A stretch of DNA of 64,000 bases, taken from positions 1-64,000 of the forward strand of contig JADGRA010000032.1 in assembly GCA_017881265.1 (NCBI GenBank). The letters are read 5' to 3'. Position 1 is the first letter of the stretch. Each line of letters starts with the position of its first letter. This DNA is from Myxococcaceae bacterium (GTDB lineage Bacteria > Myxococcota > Myxococcia > Myxococcales > Myxococcaceae). The notes below the pieces were generated by a model. It was not told where the DNA came from, ran no database searches, and was given only the letters and a program-made list of their open reading frames with translations. Shown one piece after another: positions 7,867 to 40,277 of the stretch. Position numbers and translations under genes: made by a program.

Positions 7867-8385
7867 TCACATCTCCAGGGCCACCGCCACGCCGTGCAGG
7901 GTGGCGGCGATTCGCACCGCGTCGTGCACCTGGTCGGTGGACAGCCCCGCGCCGAGGACGACTTCCTCGTGGCTCCGCACGCACATCTCGCAGCCATTCA
8001 CCGCGCTCACCGCCAGGCAAAACAGTTCGAAGTCGGCCTTGTTGGTGGCCACCTGGGCGAGCCGCTGCATGCGCAGCCGCGCTGGCTTCTCGGCGTACTC
8101 GGCCTTTCCGACCATGTGCCGGAAGCGGTAGTAGACGTTGTTCATCCCCATCAGCGCCGCGGCCGCCTTGGCGTCGTCGACCACGGCCGCTGGCACCGTC
8201 ACCAGCGCGTCCTCGAGGACGGCCTGGCGCAGGGTGGGGTTGCGCGAGGCGATGGCGGTGGCCACCGCCACGCCCCACACCTGCTCGAGGCTGAGCGTGC
8301 CCGGCTGCAGGACGGCGCCGAGGTTGAGGCGCAAGTCCTTGGCCACCTCGGGAATGGCGCCGCGGAGCGTTTCCAGGGCGTGCAT
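7867..8385 (-). CDS. ahpD: Alkyl hydroperoxide reductase AhpD
   Basis: 172 aa. A carboxymuconolactone-decarboxylase-type fold with the redox motif C132-EM-C135 followed by H139 (CEMCVRSHEE), the AhpD active site. AhpD reduces oxidised AhpC, taking electrons from a dihydrolipoamide carrier in the mycobacterial system. The start ATG (8383-8385) overlaps the ahpC stop by one base, so the two proteins are translationally coupled. Length matches the family. Confidence 0.93.
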   Translation of the reverse strand: MHALETLRGAIPEVAKDLRLNLGAVLQPGTLSLEQVWGVAVATAIASRNPTLRQAVLEDALVTVPAAVVDDAKAAAALMGMNNVYYRFRHMVGKAEYAEKPARLRMQRLAQVATNKADFELFCLAVSAVNGCEMCVRSHEEVVLGAGLSTDQVHDAVRIAATLHGVAVALEM

Positions 8386-8936
8386 CAGCTGGCCTTCTTC
8401 AGCTGTGCGGTGAGGGTCTCCTTGCCCTTCTCCCAGTTGCATGGGCAGAGCTCGTCGGTCTGCAGCCCGTCCAGCACGCGCAGCACCTCGGGCACGCTGC
8501 GGCCCACCGACAGGTCGTTGACGCTCGCCCAGCGGATGGTGCCCGTCGGGTCGATGATGAAGGTGGCCCGAAGCGGAACGCCGTCCTTGTGCAGGATGCC
8601 GAGCTGGGTGGACAGCTCGCGCTTGGTGTCGGCGAGCATCGGGAAGGGCAGCGTATTCAGGTCCTTGTGGTCCTTGCGCCAGGCCAGGTGCACGAAGTGC
8701 GTGTCGGTGCTCGCGCCGAGGACCTGCGCGTCGCGCTCGAGGAACTTGCCGTTCTGCTTGCCGAACTCGGCAATCTCGGTGGGGCAGATGAAGGTGAAGT
8801 CCATCGGCCAGAAGAAGAGGACCTTCCACTTGCCCGGGAAGTCCTGCTCGGAAATCTCGCGGAACTCCTTGCCCTTCTCGAGGCTCACCACCGACTGCAG
8901 CTTGAACTTGGGAAGCGTGTCTCCAACCGTCAACAT
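8385..8936 (-). CDS. ahpC: Peroxiredoxin AhpC (AhpD-dependent type)
   Basis: 183 aa from ATG 8934-8936, which has AAGGAG 5 bases upstream. The peroxidatic cysteine is C51 in FTFICPTE, and the resolving cysteines are C164 and C166 in DELCPCNW. This arrangement and the coupled ahpD match the mycobacterial AhpC-AhpD pair rather than the AhpC-AhpF pair. It reduces hydrogen peroxide, organic peroxides and peroxynitrite in the cytoplasm. A divergently transcribed regulator gene starts 187 bases away and is the obvious candidate regulator. Confidence 0.94.
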   Translation of the reverse strand: MLTVGDTLPKFKLQSVVSLEKGKEFREISEQDFPGKWKVLFFWPMDFTFICPTEIAEFGKQNGKFLERDAQVLGASTDTHFVHLAWRKDHKDLNTLPFPMLADTKRELSTQLGILHKDGVPLRATFIIDPTGTIRWASVNDLSVGRSVPEVLRVLDGLQTDELCPCNWEKGKETLTAQLKKAS

Positions 8937-16402: not shown

Positions 16403-19129
16403 ATGACCCTCCCGCGCTGCCTTTCTGTGCTGTTGCCGCTCCTTTTGTGCTGCGCGACCCCGCCCGCCCCCCCCGCCGGGCAGCCGGTGCCGCCAGCGCC
16501 GGGCGTCGTCGTCGCCCCCCAGGGCCTGGCGCCCGAGCCGCCCCAGGGCATGCGCCTGCCCGCCACCCAGAAGGCACTGGCCGAGCGGGTGGAGCTGACC
16601 ATCGACCCAGCGGCGCCCAGCTTCCAGGGCACCGCGGAGCTCGAGATGGAACTCGCGGCACCGACGGACGTCGTCTGGGTCAACGCCCGCCAGCTGAGTG
16701 TGACGCGCGCCGCGGCACAGCTGGGCGAGGCGGAGGTGGTGGCGGAGCGTTACCCCTCCCCGGAACGCGTGGCGCTGCGCTTCCCGCGGCCGCTACCTGC
16801 CGGCCGGCTGACGCTGCGCCTGGCCTTCTCCGGCGCCATCTCCAGCACCGAGGACTCCGGCGTCTTTCACCAGAAGGAGGGCGGCGACTGGTACGCCATC
16901 ACGCAGTTCGAGGAGACGGATGCGCGCCGCGCCTTTCCTTGCATGGACGAGCCGACGGCGAAAATCCCCTGGGAGCTGACGCTGCGCGTCCCGAAAGCGC
17001 TGACCGCCGTCTCCAACACCCCCATTGCCTCCGAGGAGTCCGCCGGCGAGGGGATGAAGCGGGTGCACTTTCTCCGCACGCGGCCGCTCCCCTCCTACCT
17101 GGTGGCCTTTGCGGTCGGTCCCTATGACGGGGTGGATGCCCGGCCGGCGGGCCGGAACAAGGTGCCGATGCGGGTCTACGTTCCCCACGGCCGTGCGGCG
17201 GAGGCGGCCTATGCGGTGCGCACCTCTCCGGAGCTATTGGAAACGCTGGAGGCGTACTTCGGCATCCCCTACCCCTACGAGAAGCTCGACCTGGTGGCCA
17301 TCCCCCTCACCGTGCACTTCGGGGCGATGGAGAATGCGGGGCTGGTGACGGTGGCCGCCCACCGGCTGCTGGCGCGCAAGGAGAACGAGTCCCTCGACTT
17401 CGAGCGGACGTGGGCCGTCTACGCGGCGCACGAATTCGCGCACCAGTGGTTTGGCGACCTGGTGACGATGGCCTGGTGGAACGACATCTGGCTCAACGAG
17501 GCCTTCGCCACCTGGATGGAGAACAAGGCCGTGGGCGCCTGGGCGCCGTCCTGGGGCATGCAGGTGGTGGAAGTCACCGATCGGAGCGACGCGGCCACCC
17601 GGGACACGCTGGCATCGGCGCGCAGCATCCGCCAACCCATCGAAAGCTACGACGACATCAACAACGCTTTCGACGGGATTACCTACCAGAAGGGCGCGGC
17701 GGTCATCCGGATGTTCGAGACGTACCTCGGCCCGGAGAAGTTTCAGCACGGCGTGCACCGCTACTTGTTGGCACACGCCGATGGCAATGCCACCGCCACG
17801 GACTTTCTCGCGGCCATCTCCGAGGCCACTGGGCAGGACGTGGCACCGCCCTTCGGGACGTTCCTCGACCAGTCCGGCGTCCCGGAGCTCACCGTCCAGC
17901 TGTCTTGCCCGGCTGGAAAGACGGCTGAGCTGCAGCTGGTCCAGGAGCGACTGCTCCCGGTGGGCACGGCTGCCACGGGCGACCGGCGCTGGCAGCTGCC
18001 GGTCTGCGCCCGCTGGTCGAGCGCCGGCAAGGCGCACCAGGCGTGCACGCTGATGACGGCCGCCACCGCCACCCTGCCGCTGGCCGGCGGCCCCTGCCCC
18101 ACCTGGGTGCTGCCCAATGCCGGGTACGCCGGCTACTACCGCCTCAACCTGAAGGGCAACCTGCTGCGGCAGCTGGTGACGCATGGCACGTCCCAGCTCA
18201 GCGAGGCGGAGACGGTCGGCCTGCTGGGCGACGTCGCCTCGCTGGTGCGGGCCGGGCGGTACCCGGAGGGCGAGGGGATGGAGCTGTCCACCCATTTCGC
18301 CGGTGCCAAGCGGCGGCAGGTGGTGGAGGAGGCCATCAAGCTGGCGCGCGTCCGGCCGGACTTCCTGGAGGGCCCCGCAGCCAAGTCCTACCCGGCGTGG
18401 GTCCGCCGCCACTTTGGCCCGCGGGCGCGGGCCCTGGGGCTCAAGCCGCACCCCGGCGAGGACGAGGACACCAGGCTGCTGCGGCCGCTGCTGGTGCGCT
18501 TCGTCGCCCAGCAAGGCGAGGACCCGGTTCTCATCCAGGATGCGCGCAGTGTGACGGCGCAATGGCTGAAGGACCCGACCTCGGTCGACCCGGAAGTGGT
18601 GGACACCGCCCTCGTCGTCTCCGGCACCTTCGGCGACGCCCGGCTGCACACGACGCTGGTGGAGCGGCTGAAGGCCAGTCCGGACCGGGCCACGCGCTCC
18701 CACCTCACCACCGCCCTCGCCGCGTTCCGCGACCCGGCGCTGGTGCAAGCCAACCTGGCCCTGGTGCAAGCCGCGCCCATCGACCCGCGCGAGCTCACCC
18801 GCCTCTTCTACGGCGGGCTCGACTGGCCCTCCAGCCGCGAGCTCGTCTTCCAGGCGGTGAGCAAGCACTTCGACCAGTTCGCCTCCCGGCTTCCTGAACG
18901 GAGCGCGGGGTACCTTTTCTACCTGGGGAGCGCCTTCTGTGACAGCGCGCACCGGGCGCAGGTGGAGGCGGCGTTTGCGCCGCGGGCCGAGAAAGTCCTC
19001 GGTGGCAAGCGCGAGCTGGCACAGACGCTGGAAACGGTAGACCTCTGCATCGCCGACCGCGCGGTGCAGGTGCCGAGCATCAGCGCGTACCTGGGGCGCC
19101 AGCCGCGCTCGCCGCCGGTTGGCCTCTAG
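16403..19129 (+). CDS. M1-family zinc aminopeptidase, predicted lipoprotein
   Basis: 908 aa from ATG 16403. The N-terminus (MTLPRCLSVLLPLLLCCATP) is a lipoprotein signal with a lipobox-like LLCC, so the enzyme is probably membrane-tethered outside the cytoplasm. The aminopeptidase motif GAMEN (307-311) and the zinc site HEFAH (343-347) with the distal Glu366 in NEAFATW are intact. An ERAP1-type C-terminal helical domain fills the second half. It removes N-terminal residues from peptides. An extracellular tethered form suits a predatory or proteolytic lifestyle, which is inference. It overlaps the convergent AAA gene by 4 bases. Confidence 0.93.
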   Translation: MTLPRCLSVLLPLLLCCATPPAPPAGQPVPPAPGVVVAPQGLAPEPPQGMRLPATQKALAERVELTIDPAAPSFQGTAELEMELAAPTDVVWVNARQLSVTRAAAQLGEAEVVAERYPSPERVALRFPRPLPAGRLTLRLAFSGAISSTEDSGVFHQKEGGDWYAITQFEETDARRAFPCMDEPTAKIPWELTLRVPKALTAVSNTPIASEESAGEGMKRVHFLRTRPLPSYLVAFAVGPYDGVDARPAGRNKVPMRVYVPHGRAAEAAYAVRTSPELLETLEAYFGIPYPYEKLDLVAIPLTVHFGAMENAGLVTVAAHRLLARKENESLDFERTWAVYAAHEFAHQWFGDLVTMAWWNDIWLNEAFATWMENKAVGAWAPSWGMQVVEVTDRSDAATRDTLASARSIRQPIESYDDINNAFDGITYQKGAAVIRMFETYLGPEKFQHGVHRYLLAHADGNATATDFLAAISEATGQDVAPPFGTFLDQSGVPELTVQLSCPAGKTAELQLVQERLLPVGTAATGDRRWQLPVCARWSSAGKAHQACTLMTAATATLPLAGGPCPTWVLPNAGYAGYYRLNLKGNLLRQLVTHGTSQLSEAETVGLLGDVASLVRAGRYPEGEGMELSTHFAGAKRRQVVEEAIKLARVRPDFLEGPAAKSYPAWVRRHFGPRARALGLKPHPGEDEDTRLLRPLLVRFVAQQGEDPVLIQDARSVTAQWLKDPTSVDPEVVDTALVVSGTFGDARLHTTLVERLKASPDRATRSHLTTALAAFRDPALVQANLALVQAAPIDPRELTRLFYGGLDWPSSRELVFQAVSKHFDQFASRLPERSAGYLFYLGSAFCDSAHRAQVEAAFAPRAEKVLGGKRELAQTLETVDLCIADRAVQVPSISAYLGRQPRSPPVGL

Positions 19130-20877
19130 CCTTCCTCGAGCAGCAACTTGAGCTCGCGAATGCGCCGGGTAATGACGTCCCGCTCCATCGAGCGGTAGGC
19201 CTCCGGGAGCAGCTCCCGGCTGGTGCACTCCTGCACCGCGGCCAGATTCTGCAGCTCGAGCTCCAGCGGGTAGGAGGGCGGGACGAAGTCGCTCACCACC
19301 GCCCGGACGTCGGCCTCGGTGGGCTGCTCGCGACCCTCATTGAGGGCGGCGAATTTGCTTCGCACCAGGATGGCCTCGATGTCCGCCCCGGACAGCTGCG
19401 CTCCCTTGGGGAGCACGGCGGCGAAGGACGGGACGTCGAGATTCATCTTCAGCTTCTTGGCCACCACCTTGTACAGCTCGTCCCGCTCGGCGTCCGACTG
19501 CGGGTAGAAGAGCGCCACGTGTTCCTCGGCCCGTCCCTGGCGCTTCAGGTCGATGGGAAGCAGGTCCGGCCGGCAGGTGAGCAGGAACCAGACAATCTTC
19601 CCCCGGTACTCGGTGTTCCCCATGAAGGAGGCGATGGAGGCAAACACCCGGGAGGAGGTGCCCGAGTCCCCCGAGGCGTCGCGGTTGCCGAGGAAGGCGT
19701 CGGCCTCGTCAATCATCACGGCCACCGGCCAGAGGGCCTTCAGCAGGTTGAAGATTTTCTCAAGGTTGGCCTCGGTGACGCCCTGCCATTGGCTGCGGAA
19801 GTTGAGGAACTTCACGCAGGGGATGCCAATCTCCCCGGCGAAGCAGGTGGCGAGAAACGTCTTGCCGGTGCCCACCGGGCCGGCCACCAGGTAGCCCATG
19901 GGCAGCACCTCCAGACGTCCCTTCTTCAGGGCGCTGGCCGCCTGACGCAGCATCTGCTTGGCCCGCGCATGGCCGGCCACCGCGTCCAGCGCGTGCGCCG
20001 GCTCGATGAATTCGAGGAGGCCGTGGCACTCCGCCTGGATAATCTCCTTCTTCTTGTCCTTGAGGAGCTCCGGCGTGATGCGGATTTGCCGCTCGGTGGC
20101 CTCGGTGAGGACGCGGTCGAGGTTGATGCGGGACAGTCCGGCGGTGGTTTTGGCCAGCGCGGCCAGCCCGACGTCGGACACCGAGGCGAGCTTCCGCCCG
20201 TCCAGTTTGGTCTGCACGAAGTCCAGCCGCTCCTCCTCGGTGGGCAGCGGCAATTCGATGCTCGCCACGTAGGGGTTGCGCGCCAGCCGGGGGGAGATTT
20301 CCGCCAGGTTCTCCACCAGCAGCACCACCGAGAGGTCGCCGGCAAGAAACTGCGGGTCGCAGGCCCACTTCACCAGCGTGGCCAGGCTGAAGCGGTCCTC
20401 GCTGGAGAGCGCGCCGATGTCCGCGCCGGGGGCCAGCGTCTCGGCGAAGTCGATGACGAGCGCCAGGGACTGGCCGTCGGCCAGGCGCATCCGCAGGTAG
20501 TTCTCGGCAATCTGCAGCGCCCGCCCGGGGTCCCGGGGCATCACCTTGGCGTAGTCCGTGCCGTACAGCGTGTCGTAGGCGGCCATCGCCCGCGCCAGGT
20601 CCTTCTGGGTGTCCGGCGAGGCGGCCCGGATGCCACTCGAGCGGTCATAGAAGAGGACGTGGTCCCGGCCGCCAAACAACTCCTCGGCGAGGAAAGTCTT
20701 CAACGGCCCGAAGGTGCGCTGCCCTTCGGCGTCCTGCAGCGGTTGGAGGTCCCGCACGCTGCCGTGCAGCAGGAAGGTACTGACGGTCTTGGTGTAGTAG
20801 GCCTGCGCCAGCTTGCGGGCCCATGCCGGCAGCCCCTGCAGCGGGTCCGCAGACTCCGACTTCCGTGTCCGGGCCAC
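19126..20877 (-). CDS. AAA+ ATPase with a degenerate N-terminal lobe (Ycf46-like)
   Basis: 583 aa. The C-terminal AAA+ module is complete: Walker A GPVGTGKT, Walker B VAVMIDEADAF, sensor-type LLTCRPDLLPIDLKRQGR. The first 280 residues look like a second AAA-type lobe with a Walker-B-like LALVIDFAETL but no Walker A, as in Ycf46 and related two-lobe ATPases. No membrane segment is seen. It lies 65 bases after the PEGA kinase gene on the same strand, so the kinase may control it. The substrate is unknown. Confidence 0.8.
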   Translation of the reverse strand: MARTRKSESADPLQGLPAWARKLAQAYYTKTVSTFLLHGSVRDLQPLQDAEGQRTFGPLKTFLAEELFGGRDHVLFYDRSSGIRAASPDTQKDLARAMAAYDTLYGTDYAKVMPRDPGRALQIAENYLRMRLADGQSLALVIDFAETLAPGADIGALSSEDRFSLATLVKWACDPQFLAGDLSVVLLVENLAEISPRLARNPYVASIELPLPTEEERLDFVQTKLDGRKLASVSDVGLAALAKTTAGLSRINLDRVLTEATERQIRITPELLKDKKKEIIQAECHGLLEFIEPAHALDAVAGHARAKQMLRQAASALKKGRLEVLPMGYLVAGPVGTGKTFLATCFAGEIGIPCVKFLNFRSQWQGVTEANLEKIFNLLKALWPVAVMIDEADAFLGNRDASGDSGTSSRVFASIASFMGNTEYRGKIVWFLLTCRPDLLPIDLKRQGRAEEHVALFYPQSDAERDELYKVVAKKLKMNLDVPSFAAVLPKGAQLSGADIEAILVRSKFAALNEGREQPTEADVRAVVSDFVPPSYPLELELQNLAAVQECTSRELLPEAYRSMERDVITRRIRELKLLLEEG

Positions 20878-20942: not shown

Positions 20943-23213
20943 TTAGCGACAGTTGGGCGCGCGGCGCAGCACAACCCGCACCGGCGTGGCCGGGCCTGGC
21001 GTTTCCGGCAGCTTGAGGGGCACCTGGGCCGTCTCGAAGCAGCGCTTGCGCAGGGTGAGGGCCGAGGCAGTCGCCGGGACGTGGCCGACGACGGGGGTGA
21101 CGCCCAGCTGGCGCTCGCCGCTGAAGACGGCCGCCCCGGGCGGCTGGGAGGTGACGCGTACGGCGTATTCCAGCGGCTCGAGGACGGCCCGCACTTGCAG
21201 GGCGTCCTCGGTGGTGTGGGCCAGCACCGAGGAGACGTACGGCCGGAACCCGGCGTGCCGTACCTCGACTTGCTGGTCCGTCCCCACCGGCACCTCGCCG
21301 GCCCAGAAGCCATGCACCCCGGCGCGCTTTACCGGGGCCCCGTTGAGGCGCACCTCGGCGTCGTCGGGGTCCGGTAGCACCACCAGCCGGGCCGTCCCGG
21401 CGGTGCGCTGCAGCACTACCGAGAAGGGCGTGGCTTCAGTGCCGCGCGCCACCGTCAGCGTCCCCACCGAGGGCTTGAAACCGTCTGCCGTCACCATCAC
21501 CACCACCGAGCCCGCCGGCACCCGTTGAAGCAAGGGCCACGTCTGCGGGGTGCCCAGCTCGCGCCCATTCACGTTGACCCGGGCATGGGCGCGCACCTCA
21601 GGCGGGGACAGTTCCAAGAGCAGCACGCCCTGCGGCTCGCGCAGGGCGAAGAAGGCACCCAGGGTGGCGGCGGCCAAGAGGGGCACCCCCCATAGCCAGC
21701 CCCCCAGCTTGGACGGACGCCGGCCAGCGCCGAAGAGGGCGGGAAGCGCCTCGGGCGGAGGCGGCACTTCGGTCGCCGGCGCCGGAAGGGCCGGCGTCTC
21801 GGCACCGGACTCCAACAGGGGAGGGCCGGGTTCCGCGCCAGCGGGCGCGGGCCGGGGGGAAATGAAGGTGGGCGCCGAGCTCGGACTTTGGGGCGGCTCG
21901 GCCGGGGCGGCGGTCAGCCGGGGCGGGGGCGCGTCCAGCGCCGGGTCCGTGACGGGTTCCGCCTGCAGGCGGGCCGGCGCTGCACTCTGGTGCACGGGCG
22001 GCCCCCCGTGCAGGTACTCGCTGCCGTCCACCAACAGGGTGGCCCCGTCCTGGGCGTGCACTTCCTGCTGGGGGGCGGTGGCCGTCAGCTTGGGGATGGG
22101 CGCGGCGGCGGGCCGCACCACCACCGCCCCTCCCGAACCGACGGCGCCGTTGCCCACCGGCTGCATGCCGGGGGCCGGCAGGCTGCCGTGCTGGGCGTCC
22201 ATGGCCTGCAGCAGGCTTTCCGGCGCCTTCACGTCCGCGTACTCGGCCAGGCGTGCCTTCTCGCGGTCCACCTCCTCGGCGAAGGTGGACTTCATGTACT
22301 GCATCAAGTCCTTGCGGCTGAAGATGCTGTCCGAGGTGATGAGGAAGCGCTGCAAGTCATCCGCCAGCTCGCTCGCATACTGGTAGCGGGTGTTGACGTC
22401 CTTGGCCAGCGCGCGCAGGGCAATCTTCTCCAGCGCCTCGGGAATGCGACGGTTGTAGGTGGAGGGGGGCAGGACCTCGGCCTTGCGTACCTTCTCCAGC
22501 ACCGCGAAGTCCGAGTCGCCGACGAAGAGTCGCTCGCCGGTGAGCAATTCGTAGAGGCACACGCCGATGGCGAACACGTCGCTGCGCCGGTCGAGGGGTA
22601 GCCCCCGAATCTGCTCCGGGCTCATGTAGCCGAACTTGCCCTTGAGGATGCCGGCCTGCGTCTTGGTCACCTTTCCGGCCGCCTTGGCGATGCCGAAGTC
22701 GATGACTTTCACCTCGCCCTCGAAGGAGATGAGGACGTTCTGGGGCGAGATGTCGCGGTGGACAATATTCAGGTCGCGCCCGTAGCTGTCCTTCTTGCGG
22801 TGGGCGTAGTCGAGTCCCTCGCACAGCTTGGAGACGACGTAGCAGACCAGCGGGACCGGCGGCGGCTCCCCCTTCTTGCGGGCCCGGTCAAAGATGGAGC
22901 GCAGGTCCTTGCCAGGGACGTACTCCATCGCGATGTACAGGCCCTGCCCGATGCGGTTCAGCTCATAAATCTGGCAGATGTTGGCATGGGTGAGCTGGAC
23001 TGAGATTTTCGCCTCGTCCTGGAACATCGCGATGAACTCGCTGTCCTCGGCGATGTTGGGCAGGATGCGCTTGATGGCCACCAGGCGCTCGAAGCCGCCC
23101 GCGCCGAAGGCCTTTCCGCGCCACACCTCGGCCATGCCGCCGATGTTGATGCGGTCGAGCAGCAGGTAGCGCCCGAAAGGAATCGGCTGCTTCTTCAGAG
23201 CCGGGGCGGTCAA
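20943..23213 (-). CDS. Ser/Thr protein kinase with membrane helix and PEGA-type C-terminus
   Basis: 756 aa, TTG start (23211-23213); no ATG or GTG fits before the kinase core. Kinase domain at about 10-290: GGMAEVWRGK, VAIKRILPN, catalytic loop HRDISPQN, and VKVIDFGIAKAAG. The ISPQN form of the loop is a hallmark of myxobacterial kinases. A Pro/Ala-rich linker leads to one membrane helix (LGGWLWGVPLLAAATLGAFF), then an extracytoplasmic part with repeated PEGA-like units (VNGRELGTP, VRLNGAPVKRAG). PEGA domains probably bind cell-surface polymers, so this looks like an envelope sensor kinase. Confidence 0.92.
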   Translation of the reverse strand: MTAPALKKQPIPFGRYLLLDRINIGGMAEVWRGKAFGAGGFERLVAIKRILPNIAEDSEFIAMFQDEAKISVQLTHANICQIYELNRIGQGLYIAMEYVPGKDLRSIFDRARKKGEPPPVPLVCYVVSKLCEGLDYAHRKKDSYGRDLNIVHRDISPQNVLISFEGEVKVIDFGIAKAAGKVTKTQAGILKGKFGYMSPEQIRGLPLDRRSDVFAIGVCLYELLTGERLFVGDSDFAVLEKVRKAEVLPPSTYNRRIPEALEKIALRALAKDVNTRYQYASELADDLQRFLITSDSIFSRKDLMQYMKSTFAEEVDREKARLAEYADVKAPESLLQAMDAQHGSLPAPGMQPVGNGAVGSGGAVVVRPAAAPIPKLTATAPQQEVHAQDGATLLVDGSEYLHGGPPVHQSAAPARLQAEPVTDPALDAPPPRLTAAPAEPPQSPSSAPTFISPRPAPAGAEPGPPLLESGAETPALPAPATEVPPPPEALPALFGAGRRPSKLGGWLWGVPLLAAATLGAFFALREPQGVLLLELSPPEVRAHARVNVNGRELGTPQTWPLLQRVPAGSVVVMVTADGFKPSVGTLTVARGTEATPFSVVLQRTAGTARLVVLPDPDDAEVRLNGAPVKRAGVHGFWAGEVPVGTDQQVEVRHAGFRPYVSSVLAHTTEDALQVRAVLEPLEYAVRVTSQPPGAAVFSGERQLGVTPVVGHVPATASALTLRKRCFETAQVPLKLPETPGPATPVRVVLRRAPNCR

Positions 23214-23298: not shown

Positions 23299-24084
23299 CT
23301 ACTCTCCCGTGAAGCGCGGGGGGCGCTTTTCCAGGAAGGCGGCCACCCCTTCCAGGAAATCCTTGGAGCCGAGCAGCTTGAGCTGCCCGTGGACCTCGGC
23401 CTCGAGCGCGGCATCGAAGGAGCTGGCGAGCGCGCCATAGACGCTCTTCTTCACCGCCTGGTGCACCAGCGGCGGCCCGGCCGCCAGAGCGCGGAGAAAG
23501 TCCGTCGCCCCGGCTTCCAGCTGCGCCGCCGGAAACACCCGGTTGGCCAGGCCGATGGACTTCGCCTCGGCCGCGTCCACCATGTCCCCGGTGAACATCA
23601 GCTCCAGCGCCCGGCCGAGGCCCACCAGCCGCGGCAGCGTCCAGCTCCCACCGCCGTCGGGCATCAGCCCGCGCTTGACGAAGATTTCGCCGAAGCGCGC
23701 CCGGTCCGAACAGAGGCGAAGGTCGCAGGCCAGCGCCAGGTCGCACCCGAAGCCGGCGGCCACCCCGTCCACCACCGCCACTGTGGGCAGCGGGCTGTCG
23801 CGCAGGGCACGGATGAGGCCGTGAAAGTGGGTGCGCATCCGGCCCTCGACGGTGCTCGCGTCCAGGCCCTCGGCGGCGGCCCACTTGAGGTCGAGCCCGG
23901 AGCAGAAGGCCCCGCCCGCGCCGCCGAGCGCCACCACCAGGGCCCCCGCCTCCGGGGCGGCCTGCACGGCCTCGCGCACGGCCTGGTTGACGGGGACGGT
24001 GAGCGCGTTCTTCGTCTCCGGGCGGTTCAGCGTAATCCAGCGGATGGTGCCGTCGTCACGGACGAGGACTTCGGTGGAACCCAT
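23299..24084 (-). CDS. Enoyl-CoA hydratase/isomerase family protein
   Basis: 261 aa from ATG 24082-24084 (an in-frame start at 24123 adds 13 unlikely residues). The crotonase fold shows ALGGAGGAFCSGLDLK (CoA pocket and first oxyanion-hole segment) and VDGVAAGFGCDLALACDLRL (second oxyanion-hole segment). The usual Glu of the first catalytic position in hydratases is not evident (FGEIFVKRGLMPDGGG carries E and D), so the exact reaction is uncertain. It could be hydratase, isomerase or another crotonase activity in fatty-acid or amino-acid degradation. No other beta-oxidation gene is nearby. Confidence 0.82.
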   Translation of the reverse strand: MGSTEVLVRDDGTIRWITLNRPETKNALTVPVNQAVREAVQAAPEAGALVVALGGAGGAFCSGLDLKWAAAEGLDASTVEGRMRTHFHGLIRALRDSPLPTVAVVDGVAAGFGCDLALACDLRLCSDRARFGEIFVKRGLMPDGGGSWTLPRLVGLGRALELMFTGDMVDAAEAKSIGLANRVFPAAQLEAGATDFLRALAAGPPLVHQAVKKSVYGALASSFDAALEAEVHGQLKLLGSKDFLEGVAAFLEKRPPRFTGE

Positions 24085-24163
24085 AGGGGCCGCAGTTTGA
24101 ATGGGCGGGGCGAGGGGGCGCAAGCGCCTCGACGCACCCTTTGGGGGGTGGCCCGCGTGCCCT

Positions 24164-24973
24164 TCAGCGCACGCGCACGCCGTGCGGCAGCGGGGCGGCG
24201 GTCTCGTCGGCGAAGTCCATGAAGTTTTCCATCTCGCGCACGGTGTCCTCGGTGGCCTGCACCTCCACCGAGAGCGCGTCCAGCTGCCGGGTGATGTGCT
24301 CCGGGTCGCGAATGGCGATGGACTGCTCGTGCGTCAGCCGGAGGAGGTCCTCGATGCTGGCCAGCTGGTGGCTCACCACCGCGCGGCTCTCCTCGGCCTG
24401 GGTGAAGCGCTGCAGGCGCTTGCTGAGAATCTCCACCCGCTTCTGCTTCACCTCGCGAAGGCGCGCGCTGGCCTCGTTGCCCGCATCCGTCCGGAGCTCC
24501 TTCAGCTCGGCGTCCAGCGCCTGGCGGTCGGCGACGCTGAGGTAGCGCCGGTAGCCATTCAGCGTGCTGAGCAGCCGCAGGAAGGAGGTGAGGAGCGCGT
24601 CGACCCGGCTCTCGCTGGAGGCCGCCAGCACGCGGCCGCCGGGAAGCCGGCGGTAGTTGGCTTCAATCTTCTCCTTGAGGTCGCGCAGCTGGTGGTAGTG
24701 CTCGCGCTGGCTGGGAGCGAGCTCGGCCAAGAGGCTCTCCACCTCCGCCTCGCCGCTGGCCGGGGCGCCCCTGGCCCGTGCCGCCCGGCGGAAGCGCGGG
24801 TCGATGCCCACCACCAGCAGGTAGAAGCCTTCCAGGGCAGCCGCCACCGCCACCGGAAGCGTCTGGCCAGTCACCAGGGTGGCCCCCACCGCACCGGACA
24901 GTCCGATGAGGTTGGCTGGCGCCAGAAGCGCCGTCTTCAGCCAGGCGAGGGAAGAAGGGGCTGTGTCACTCAA
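24164..24973 (-). CDS. Membrane-anchored coiled-coil protein of the PspA unit
   Basis: 269 aa. Two adjacent hydrophobic segments at about residues 16-37 (LLAPANLIGLSGAVGATLVT) and 39-56 (LPVAVAAALEGFYLLVVG) form a hairpin anchor. Over 200 residues of charged, heptad-like helix follow, for example LRDLKEKIEANYRRL and ASIEDLLRLTHEQS. I do not recognise the family. It overlaps the binding-protein gene by 4 bases and is the third gene after pspA, so it probably acts with PspA at the inner membrane. The long helices resemble PspA partners in form only. Confidence 0.7.
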   Translation of the reverse strand: MSDTAPSSLAWLKTALLAPANLIGLSGAVGATLVTGQTLPVAVAAALEGFYLLVVGIDPRFRRAARARGAPASGEAEVESLLAELAPSQREHYHQLRDLKEKIEANYRRLPGGRVLAASSESRVDALLTSFLRLLSTLNGYRRYLSVADRQALDAELKELRTDAGNEASARLREVKQKRVEILSKRLQRFTQAEESRAVVSHQLASIEDLLRLTHEQSIAIRDPEHITRQLDALSVEVQATEDTVREMENFMDFADETAAPLPHGVRVR

Positions 24974-26136
24974 GGTCCGCGTGCCTCCACCAGGCCGCGC
25001 AGCGCCGAGAGGTCAAGCGTCTCGCCGGCCCCGCGCAGCGGCTCCGTCCGACGCTCCAGCTTGGCAAACAGCTGCAGCGCACTCTGGTACAGCTCCTCGT
25101 ACGTGACTGGGGCCTCGCCCGCCAGTCCGAAGAAGGCCAGGTTGTCCTTCAGGGTGGCTGGAGCGCTGCTCCGCACCGCCTCCGAGGGGTCCCCCAGCTG
25201 GGGGGCCACGTCGCCCAGCAGGCGGGCTCCCGGGGCGGGGTCCTTCAGCTGGGCCGTGTCCGCGTCCAGAAGCCCCCGGACGATGCGCCGGACGGCGTCC
25301 GGGTAGCGGGCGGCGAATTCCCCGCGCGCCACGAGGACGGTGGCCACCAGGTGGGGGGCATCCGCCGTGGTGGCCAGCACCGTGCCGCCTCGCTCCCGAG
25401 CCGCCGCCTCCACGTCCGCCGCCATCCCCACCACCGCGTCCGCCCGCCCCTCGCGCAGGGCGCGCCCGGCGTCGAAGGCGGAGGCCAGGTCCACCCAGCG
25501 CACTTCCGAGGGCGCCAGGCCGGCCCGCATCAGCAGCCACAGCGCGAAGTACTGGCCGGAGGACTGGGGCGCCGTCCCCAGTCGCTTGCCCTTCAGCCCG
25601 CCCAGGCTGGACACCCCCACCGCGGCGAGGACGTCCTCCCCCCGGCTGCGCCCCAGCAGCATCTCCACCCGCGGGGCCGCATCCCGAAGGGCGACCGCCC
25701 AGGCGGCGAGTCGGTCCACGGTGACGGCCGCCAGGTCCACCCCACCGTGCTCGCCACCCGCGGCCAGGGCGGCGCGCAACTCCTCCTCGCGCGCGAAGGG
25801 AATGGCCCGGGCGTCAATGGCGTAGGCGGACTTGAGGAGCCCCGGCCGCGGGTCGGGCCCGGTGTCCCCGGTGGCCAACAGCAGCGGCGCGGCGCTGCCC
25901 CGGGGGACGAAGCCGATGGCGGTGGGCCGAAGCGGGATGGAGGCCACCTCGTCCCCGGGGGCGGTCACCCCGGCCGGAAAATCCCCCGCGGACAGGAGGG
26001 CCCGCTGGCGCAGCGAGGGGAACACCCGGCCCTGCAGCACCTCCAGCCAGCCGGTGGCGGAGGCGAGGGCCCACAGGCCGATGAGCAGCACAAGGGCCAG
26101 GAAGAGGTACAGCCCGCCTTTGCGTCGCCAGGCCAC
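24970..26136 (-). CDS. Membrane-anchored TauA/SsuA-like substrate-binding protein
   Basis: 388 aa, GTG start. A single N-terminal helix ([20 protein letters not shown]) is followed by a periplasmic binding-protein fold of the NMT1/TauA type: [19 protein letters not shown] and [15 protein letters not shown] are characteristic. The helix has no lipobox or clear cleavage site, so the domain is probably held at the outer face of the inner membrane. No permease or ATPase gene is near, so it is unlikely to serve a normal ABC importer. It lies between pspA (32 bases before) and the coiled-coil gene (4-base overlap). Confidence 0.78.
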
Positions 26137-26168
26137 GGACGTCGCGCCTCCCCGCAGGACGGGAGGCG

Positions 26169-26903
26169 CTACTTGACCTCGACCTTCTTGCCGATGGTCT
26201 TCTCTGCCGCCTCGCCCGTCTCGGAGACGGGAGCGGGGCTGGAGATGCCCATCTCCATCTTGAACTGCTTCACCAGTTCCATCGCCTGCAGCTTCTCGGC
26301 CTCTTCTTCAATCTGCAGCGACTGGTGGTCGACGCCTTCCAGCGCCATCTGCATGCGCGCCTCGTTGACGGCCGCCGACTCCTGCACCTTGCGCAGCATC
26401 TCGTCGTGGGTGGCGTCGATGCCGGCGACCTGGAAGGACTCCATGGCGTCGGCAACCTTCGCTTGCCACTTGGCGCGCCGCGCGTCGCGGATGGCGCCCA
26501 TCGCCTCCTGGGTCTTCTTGTCCTTCTCCCGCATGAACATCTTCTTGACGGTCAGCGCCTTGTCGTAGGCGGCCCGGGCGGTGCTCAGCTGCTCCTCGTT
26601 GCGGGCGAGCGCCGACTTCTCCATCTGCAGCCGGGTGGCGTACTGGGCGGCGAGGTCGTCGCGGCTGGCCTGGATGGAGGCCTTCACCTTGGCGGTGAGG
26701 TCATTCACCTCGGTGCGGTACTTGAGGTTTTCCTTCTCGAGCAGGGTGACGTTGGCCCGCACCATGGCGATGGATTCGTTCATCCGCGGAACCTGGTCGT
26801 TCAGGTCGCGGATGTTCTGTTCGAGGATGAGCTCCGGGTCTTCGATGCTGCTCACGAAGAAGCCGAAGAAGCTGCGCATCGCACGTCGGAAGCGGTTCCA
26901 CAT
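26169..26903 (-). CDS. pspA: PspA/IM30-family membrane-remodelling protein
   Basis: 244 aa. An all-helical PspA/IM30 protein with an amphipathic N-terminal helix ([20 protein letters not shown]), then [20 protein letters not shown] and long coiled-coil helices. PspA proteins are bacterial ESCRT-III relatives that bind stressed inner membrane and limit proton leakage. There is no pspF, pspB or pspC nearby; instead an anchored binding protein and a coiled-coil membrane protein follow. I found no sigma-54 promoter of GG-N10-GC form in the 110 bases upstream. Confidence 0.9.
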
Positions 26904-27013
26904 GGGGTTCTCGTTCCTGGGCCGGTCTGACGCCTGGTGGATTTAGCACGTTCCCGCCCGAAGACGACGTCCGGCGGGGCGCTCCATTGCCTTTGTGACG
27001 CCCGTGGGGCGCC

Positions 27014-39864: not shown

Positions 39865-40268
<404 letters not shown>

Positions 40269-40277
40269 GCTGTTTTT

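Follow-up and report, generated by a model that had tools for sequence, protein, structure and literature searches.

Introduction

Proteins of the PspA family form ESCRT-III-type polymers on the inner membrane, and one may ask how such bacterial ESCRT-III proteins are disassembled and whether an ATPase takes part in this process. The way in which AAA-less PspA proteins regulate their assembly was stated to be unknown in a recent paper (Ravi et al., 2024; PMC11237479). The locus described here is found in a 64,000-nucleotide stretch of DNA, termed the window (positions 1 to 64,000 of contig JADGRA010000032.1, assembly GCA_017881265.1), from a Myxococcaceae bacterium. In this locus PspA is accompanied by a single, well-defined AAA+ ATPase and by one partner in the membrane, which makes the question of ESCRT-III disassembly directly testable, also in the model organism Myxococcus xanthus. 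It is probably, in addition, a case of a binding protein that survived the loss of its transporter beside a membrane-remodelling protein.

The pspA, SBP, and CC genes

Three genes follow one another on the minus strand, i.e., pspA (26169–26903; 244 residues), the gene of a membrane-anchored substrate-binding protein of TauA/SsuA type (SBP; 24970–26136; 388 residues) and the gene of a membrane coiled-coil protein (CC; 24164–24973; 269 residues). There are 32 bases between pspA and the SBP gene, while the SBP and CC genes overlap by 4 bases, so that genes, order and spacing are exactly as given in the preliminary description of this DNA. The window PspA is the sole PF04012 protein of the genome (58.8 bits vs. 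the curated cut-off of 33.9), and a search of PDB sequences with it led to Vipp1/PspA chains. It scored 11.2 bits against the classical-PspA equivalog TIGR02977 (NCBIfam), far below the cut-off of 242.95. Its identity to 80 orthologues was 65–88%, and about 79–84% to the named loci of Myxococcus, Corallococcus, Archangium, and Hyalangium. All 79 named orthologues carry the motif KT[ILM][GA] within their last 30 residues, after a variable linker; in the window the ten-residue C-terminal tail is encoded at 26172–26201 (minus strand). The motif is absent from the canonical PspA paralogues of two loci (L119 and L120), whose genomes hold the other PspA type as well.

Upstream of pspA, at a distance of 63–87 bases, the promoter-like motif GCAAT-N16-CGTC is located (26966–26990, minus strand). 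The more general pattern GCAAT-N16-18-CGT[AC] precedes pspA in 28 of 45 Myxococcaceae loci, the window included, vs. 0.36% of shuffles, and in none of 25 loci from other groups; these counts are suggestive only, since the pattern was derived from part of the very set in which it was counted. The pattern resembles an ECF sigma-factor site, and pspA may be expressed from an ECF-type promoter. No strict sigma-54 motif was found ahead of pspA among the upstream sequences listed.

The SBP matches the NMT1 family with 42.9 bits and the SsuA family with 59.7 bits. It contains a single hydrophobic helix (residues 6–28), predicted to span the membrane, shows no obvious lipobox and has a two-lobed domain at about residues 65–388 with strongly conserved positions. 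In the structure model (mean pLDDT 89.4) the N-terminal membrane helix is followed by the complete two-lobed domain, and in the fold search E. coli TauA was the nearest structure (6ssy; Z 29.7, 2.6 Å, 283 residues aligned). The SBP had no match in the plasmid collection that was searched with it. CC is modelled with a membrane hairpin at residues 19–57 and then long helices (pLDDT 84.7). It constitutes a conserved family across Myxococcota and Acidobacteriota that has no significant match in Pfam or other protein families, and the assignment of CC as an XpaC/TelA-type protein was dropped accordingly. The fold search with CC returned helical bundles only, many of them BAR-like, with Z up to 10.8, which is still within the noise quoted for models of this kind; among the matches listed there was no PspA or ESCRT-III chain, and the profile comparison of PspA with CC was empty.

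The preliminary description had pointed to the absence of pspB and pspC. This holds for the whole genome, where neither protein was detected (PF04024, PF06667), while the E. coli control was positive. It had also pointed to a binding protein that lacks a permease beside it, and indeed no permease or ABC ATPase gene adjoins the SBP gene; elsewhere in the genome, which is 95.7% complete, a close relative of a cognate permease was likewise not found, the only TauC/SsuC-like match being weak and partial (27% identity, E 1.9e-5).

Conservation in Myxococcota and the full operon of other phyla

The gene order, whose conservation the preliminary description had left to be checked, is conserved: PspA and CC occur together in 46 Myxococcaceae-type loci, in 41 of them with the SBP in between. 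In five relatives (L157, L167, L168, L169, and L171) the SBP is missing and PspA and CC remain neighbours; in two cases about 1 kb separates them, and no SBP is found in that stretch. Since the presence or absence of the SBP requires five changes on the CC tree, on scattered branches, it was probably lost several times. The SBP is thus the dispensable part of the trio, while PspA and CC stay together. Two families lack it as well, namely f10, represented by L111 with PspA and CC only, and f7, in which PspA is followed by a protein of 64–68 residues that is reduced to the CC hairpin (L114, 4998–5192; L108, 3604–3804; L116, 5533–5733). In family f3 two consecutive CC genes follow the SBP (L069, 3338–5215; L073, 191–2205).

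Two single records may be mentioned here. In L142 the stretch that separates pspA and CC holds a TruB-like gene of the opposite strand (8122–8928), and the SBP is missing. L175, titled Comamonas sp. KCTC 72670, holds a Myxococcus-like locus and is probably a mislabelled or contaminated record.

Named genomes were scanned with PspA as the query, the CC alignment having no conserved stretch. Outside Myxococcota, PspA proteins of 65–71% identity were found in Acidobacteriota, in one Cloacimonadota and in one Methylomirabilota locus. The order of genes in the full form is a coiled-coil protein (PSPL), PspA, an SBP fused to an OmpA domain (SBP-OmpA), an ABC permease, an ABC ATPase, CC and an AAA+ ATPase. 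In the 18 loci of these three phyla, some of which end at contig ends, PspA and SBP-OmpA are present in all, the ABC ATPase in 17, CC in 16, the permease in 15 and the first coiled coil in 13, and tblastn with the window AAA+ protein detected an orthologue of 48–52% identity immediately after CC. The permease and the ATPase that accompany SBP-OmpA are TauC/TauB-like. The PSPL coiled coil, which heads both this operon and a second cluster of some Myxococcaceae, has no Pfam family (L062, 6396–7100; L063, 4374–5009; L216, 6290–6988). The SBP of Myxococcaceae and SBP-OmpA have similar N-terminal anchors, and in a tree with eight ordinary SBPs as outgroup they group together with support of 89/89, which is moderate, and the stems are long; the topology does not fix the direction of change. 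Since the PspA orthologues of Acidobacteriota lie in the full operon, the trio would be a reduced PspA-linked ABC system. The preliminary description, in contrast, took the transporter-free form as the basic state, which is not supported: the homologous, OmpA-fused SBP of Acidobacteriota sits beside an ABC permease and an ABC ATPase, in operons whose PspA is 65–71% identical to that of the window, and a binding protein found next to a permease elsewhere is what the preliminary description itself had named as counting against its view.

These data bear on the proposal, which builds on the preliminary description, that the SBP is a sensor that binds a periplasmic small molecule or lipid and recruits or releases PspA through CC, thereby replacing PspB/PspC. 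A genome devoid of PspB, PspC and a cognate permease, a complete TauA-like fold with strongly conserved positions, the overlap of the SBP and CC genes and the retention of the SBP in most loci all speak for it. However, PspA and CC occur without any SBP in the five relatives and in f10, f7 combines PspA with a bare hairpin, and the homologous SBP of the full operon is associated with a transporter. Since five relatives on scattered branches retain PspA-CC and lack the SBP, the latter is unlikely to be an essential sensor that recruits PspA, and the proposal as a whole is regarded as rather improbable; a modulatory sensing role of the SBP is what it may retain.

The AAA+ ATPase linked to PspA

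Further along the minus strand, at 19126–20877, a gene of an AAA+ ATPase of Cdc48/Vps4 type is located (583 residues; PF00004, 72 bits), which was overlooked in the preliminary description. One AAA domain is recognisable in this protein, at residues 330–455, and its N-terminal half is not recognised as AAA. Between pspA and this gene, on the same strand, lie the genes of the SBP, CC, an enoyl-CoA hydratase family protein and a Ser/Thr protein kinase with PEGA domains (20943–23213, minus strand). The kinase gene is also found directly above the AAA+ gene in relatives, and it is absent from the Acidobacteriota operon. The distance from CC to the AAA+ gene is 4.1 kb in the window, and in all 20 chromosome-level Myxococcaceae the latter is located 7.8–11.6 kb downstream of CC (start to start) on the same strand; elsewhere, e.g., in two other Myxococcota families (f11 and f31), it is placed directly below CC. 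These two families have a cluster similar to the full operon of Acidobacteriota, with a divergent PspA (PF04012, 35.6–40.9 bits in four of them) and an AAA+ protein of 43–44% identity. As regards the rest of the window, it also contains a bacterial class A RNase P RNA (39868–40269; 283 bits).

The linkage of PspA with the ATPase was surveyed in 195 Myxococcota genomes, of which 116 hold PspA together with a close AAA+ protein and 69 hold neither; 5 have PspA without AAA+, and another 5, all drafts, have AAA+ without PspA (Fisher P about 3e-40, a statistic that ignores the relatedness of genomes). In four genomes (G036, G037, G042, and G163) the AAA+ gene is on another contig. Three reduced genomes (G044, G049, and G053) hold PspA with SBP- and CC-type genes and no detected AAA+, and hence the ATPase is not indispensable. 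Two of these three genomes are probably those of loci L214 (G044) and L213 (G053), whose PspA carries the KT tail motif, as does that of L113 (G042), in which CC was not detected. This weakens the idea that the KTIG tail is read by the ATPase alone, for L213 and L214 keep the tail where no AAA+ was detected.

One could go further and regard the locus as a bacterial counterpart of ESCRT-III/Vps4, in which the KT(I/L/M)(G/A) tail of PspA would be a docking site, the hairpin protein the partner of PspA, the AAA+ protein the ATPase, and the transporter-less SBP a tethered ligand sensor of membrane remodelling. In this complete form the scheme is considered doubtful.

Import and envelope functions as alternatives

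The enoyl-CoA hydratase family gene (23299–24123, minus strand) occupies the place at which most relatives have a lipoprotein-like gene, a LolD-like ATPase gene and a LolC/FtsX-like permease gene, followed by the kinase and AAA+ genes. It is a lineage-specific replacement of these three genes and probably stands outside the system. The lipoprotein of the relatives has no match in the window genome, and the FtsX protein has distant relatives only. Part of Myxococcaceae possess, alongside the trio, the second cluster, of the order PSPL-SBP-OmpA-permease-ATPase-CC2, which is absent from the window genome.

It is very unlikely that the SBP serves as an orphan subunit of an importer whose permease is encoded at another place in the genome: the TauA/SsuA fold and the second cluster of some relatives, which includes an SBP-OmpA, a permease and an ATPase, would fit this idea, but the nearly complete window genome has neither that cluster nor more than one weak, partial permease match, and the SBP is still conserved there. 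Equally little probability is given to a service of SBP and CC to the LolD/FtsX-type transporter and lipoprotein that most relatives encode just downstream, e.g., in the handling of envelope lipids or lipoproteins. In many Myxococcaceae the series PspA-SBP-CC-lipoprotein-LolD-FtsX is continuous and the lipoprotein gene is found in 43 of the 46 loci, yet the window genome keeps SBP and CC after the loss of the lipoprotein, with only distant FtsX relatives, and in families f7 and f10 the lipoprotein-LolD-FtsX genes are present although the SBP is missing. The retention of the SBP in a genome that has neither an SsuC-type permease nor the LolD/FtsX set argues for a role other than import.

A probable reduced membrane-remodelling system

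The reading preferred here, with a probability of roughly 55%, is that the locus encodes a reduced PspA-linked membrane-remodelling system, with PspA, CC and the AAA+ ATPase as its core and the SBP as a ligand-binding tuner. In this mechanism PspA would supply the ESCRT-III-type membrane polymer, CC would probably anchor PspA or serve as its adaptor through the membrane hairpin, and the Cdc48/Vps4-type ATPase would probably be the remodelling motor that acts on PspA polymers; these roles, and the contacts between the four proteins, are putative. In the full form the core would be tied to SBP-OmpA, with its OmpA domain of peptidoglycan-binding type, and to an ABC importer of TauBC/SsuBC type. 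Myxococcaceae would then, on the simplest reading, have lost the OmpA domain together with permease and ATPase of the importer, a direction (loss rather than gain) that we infer, and the SBP would stay as a periplasmic ligand-binding module tethered to the inner membrane, which probably tunes the core in response to a ligand rather than imports a solute. Several observations stand against the reduced system: neither the profile comparison nor the fold search related CC to PspA/ESCRT-III, the AAA+ gene is undetected in the three reduced genomes and lies on another contig in four others, and the long stem branch of the SBP leaves room for the independent recruitment of an ordinary SBP.

Relation to known systems

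The closest counterpart in print is a single sentence of one paper, which notes that genes of an ABC ATPase, a permease and SBP-OmpA may accompany those of PspA, TM-bearing Snf7 homologues and a double-AAA ATPase, with OGG56892.1 as an example (Ravi et al., 2024; PMC11237479). The Acidobacteriota loci match the operon so described, and the window shares with it PspA, a membrane coiled coil, an AAA+ protein with one inactive AAA half and an SBP of the periplasmic-binding-protein fold. Unlike that operon, the window form has no OmpA domain, ABC permease or ABC ATPase, and its AAA+ gene is placed three genes below CC. CC may be the TM Snf7-like protein of that text; neither sequence nor fold comparison confirmed this, so that the picture of two ESCRT-III proteins rests on the literature. 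The same paper reports a joint occurrence of PspA and Snf7 in Deltaproteobacteria (AKJ06548.1; Ravi et al., 2024). There, as in the window, PspA lies beside a second membrane-remodelling-like coiled coil, no binding protein is mentioned in the text, and the neighbourhood may be this very locus.

The preliminary description took the module for a candidate uncharacterised system, which stands for the transporter-free Myxococcaceae form and not for the full operon type, already covered by the sentence cited above from PMC11237479. A survey of Psp contexts mentions no binding protein (PMC9239133), and literature searches on PspA, including that of Myxococcus xanthus, gave no account of this locus. 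The literature examined contains no description of the form without a transporter, of an SBP that can be dispensed with, of the KT(I/L/M)(G/A) motif, of the ECF-type promoter-like motif or of a survey of the PspA/AAA+ linkage.

With the classical Psp response (PspF-PspABC) the locus has the PspA family in common, whereas the window genome lacks PspB/PspC and has an ECF-type promoter-like motif. With the sulfonate importers TauABC/SsuABC it shares the SBP fold, whereas the window SBP is membrane-anchored and has no permease or ATPase. The archaeal Meth_adaptin ESCRT loci (PMC10936438) likewise combine ESCRT-type genes with a transporter-type (ProX-like) binding protein, but they are archaeal, their SBP belongs to another family, and their partners are different. 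The system of PspA, CC, AAA+ and ABC transporter had thus already been glimpsed in print, and in Myxococcaceae it is met in what is probably a slimmed-down form.
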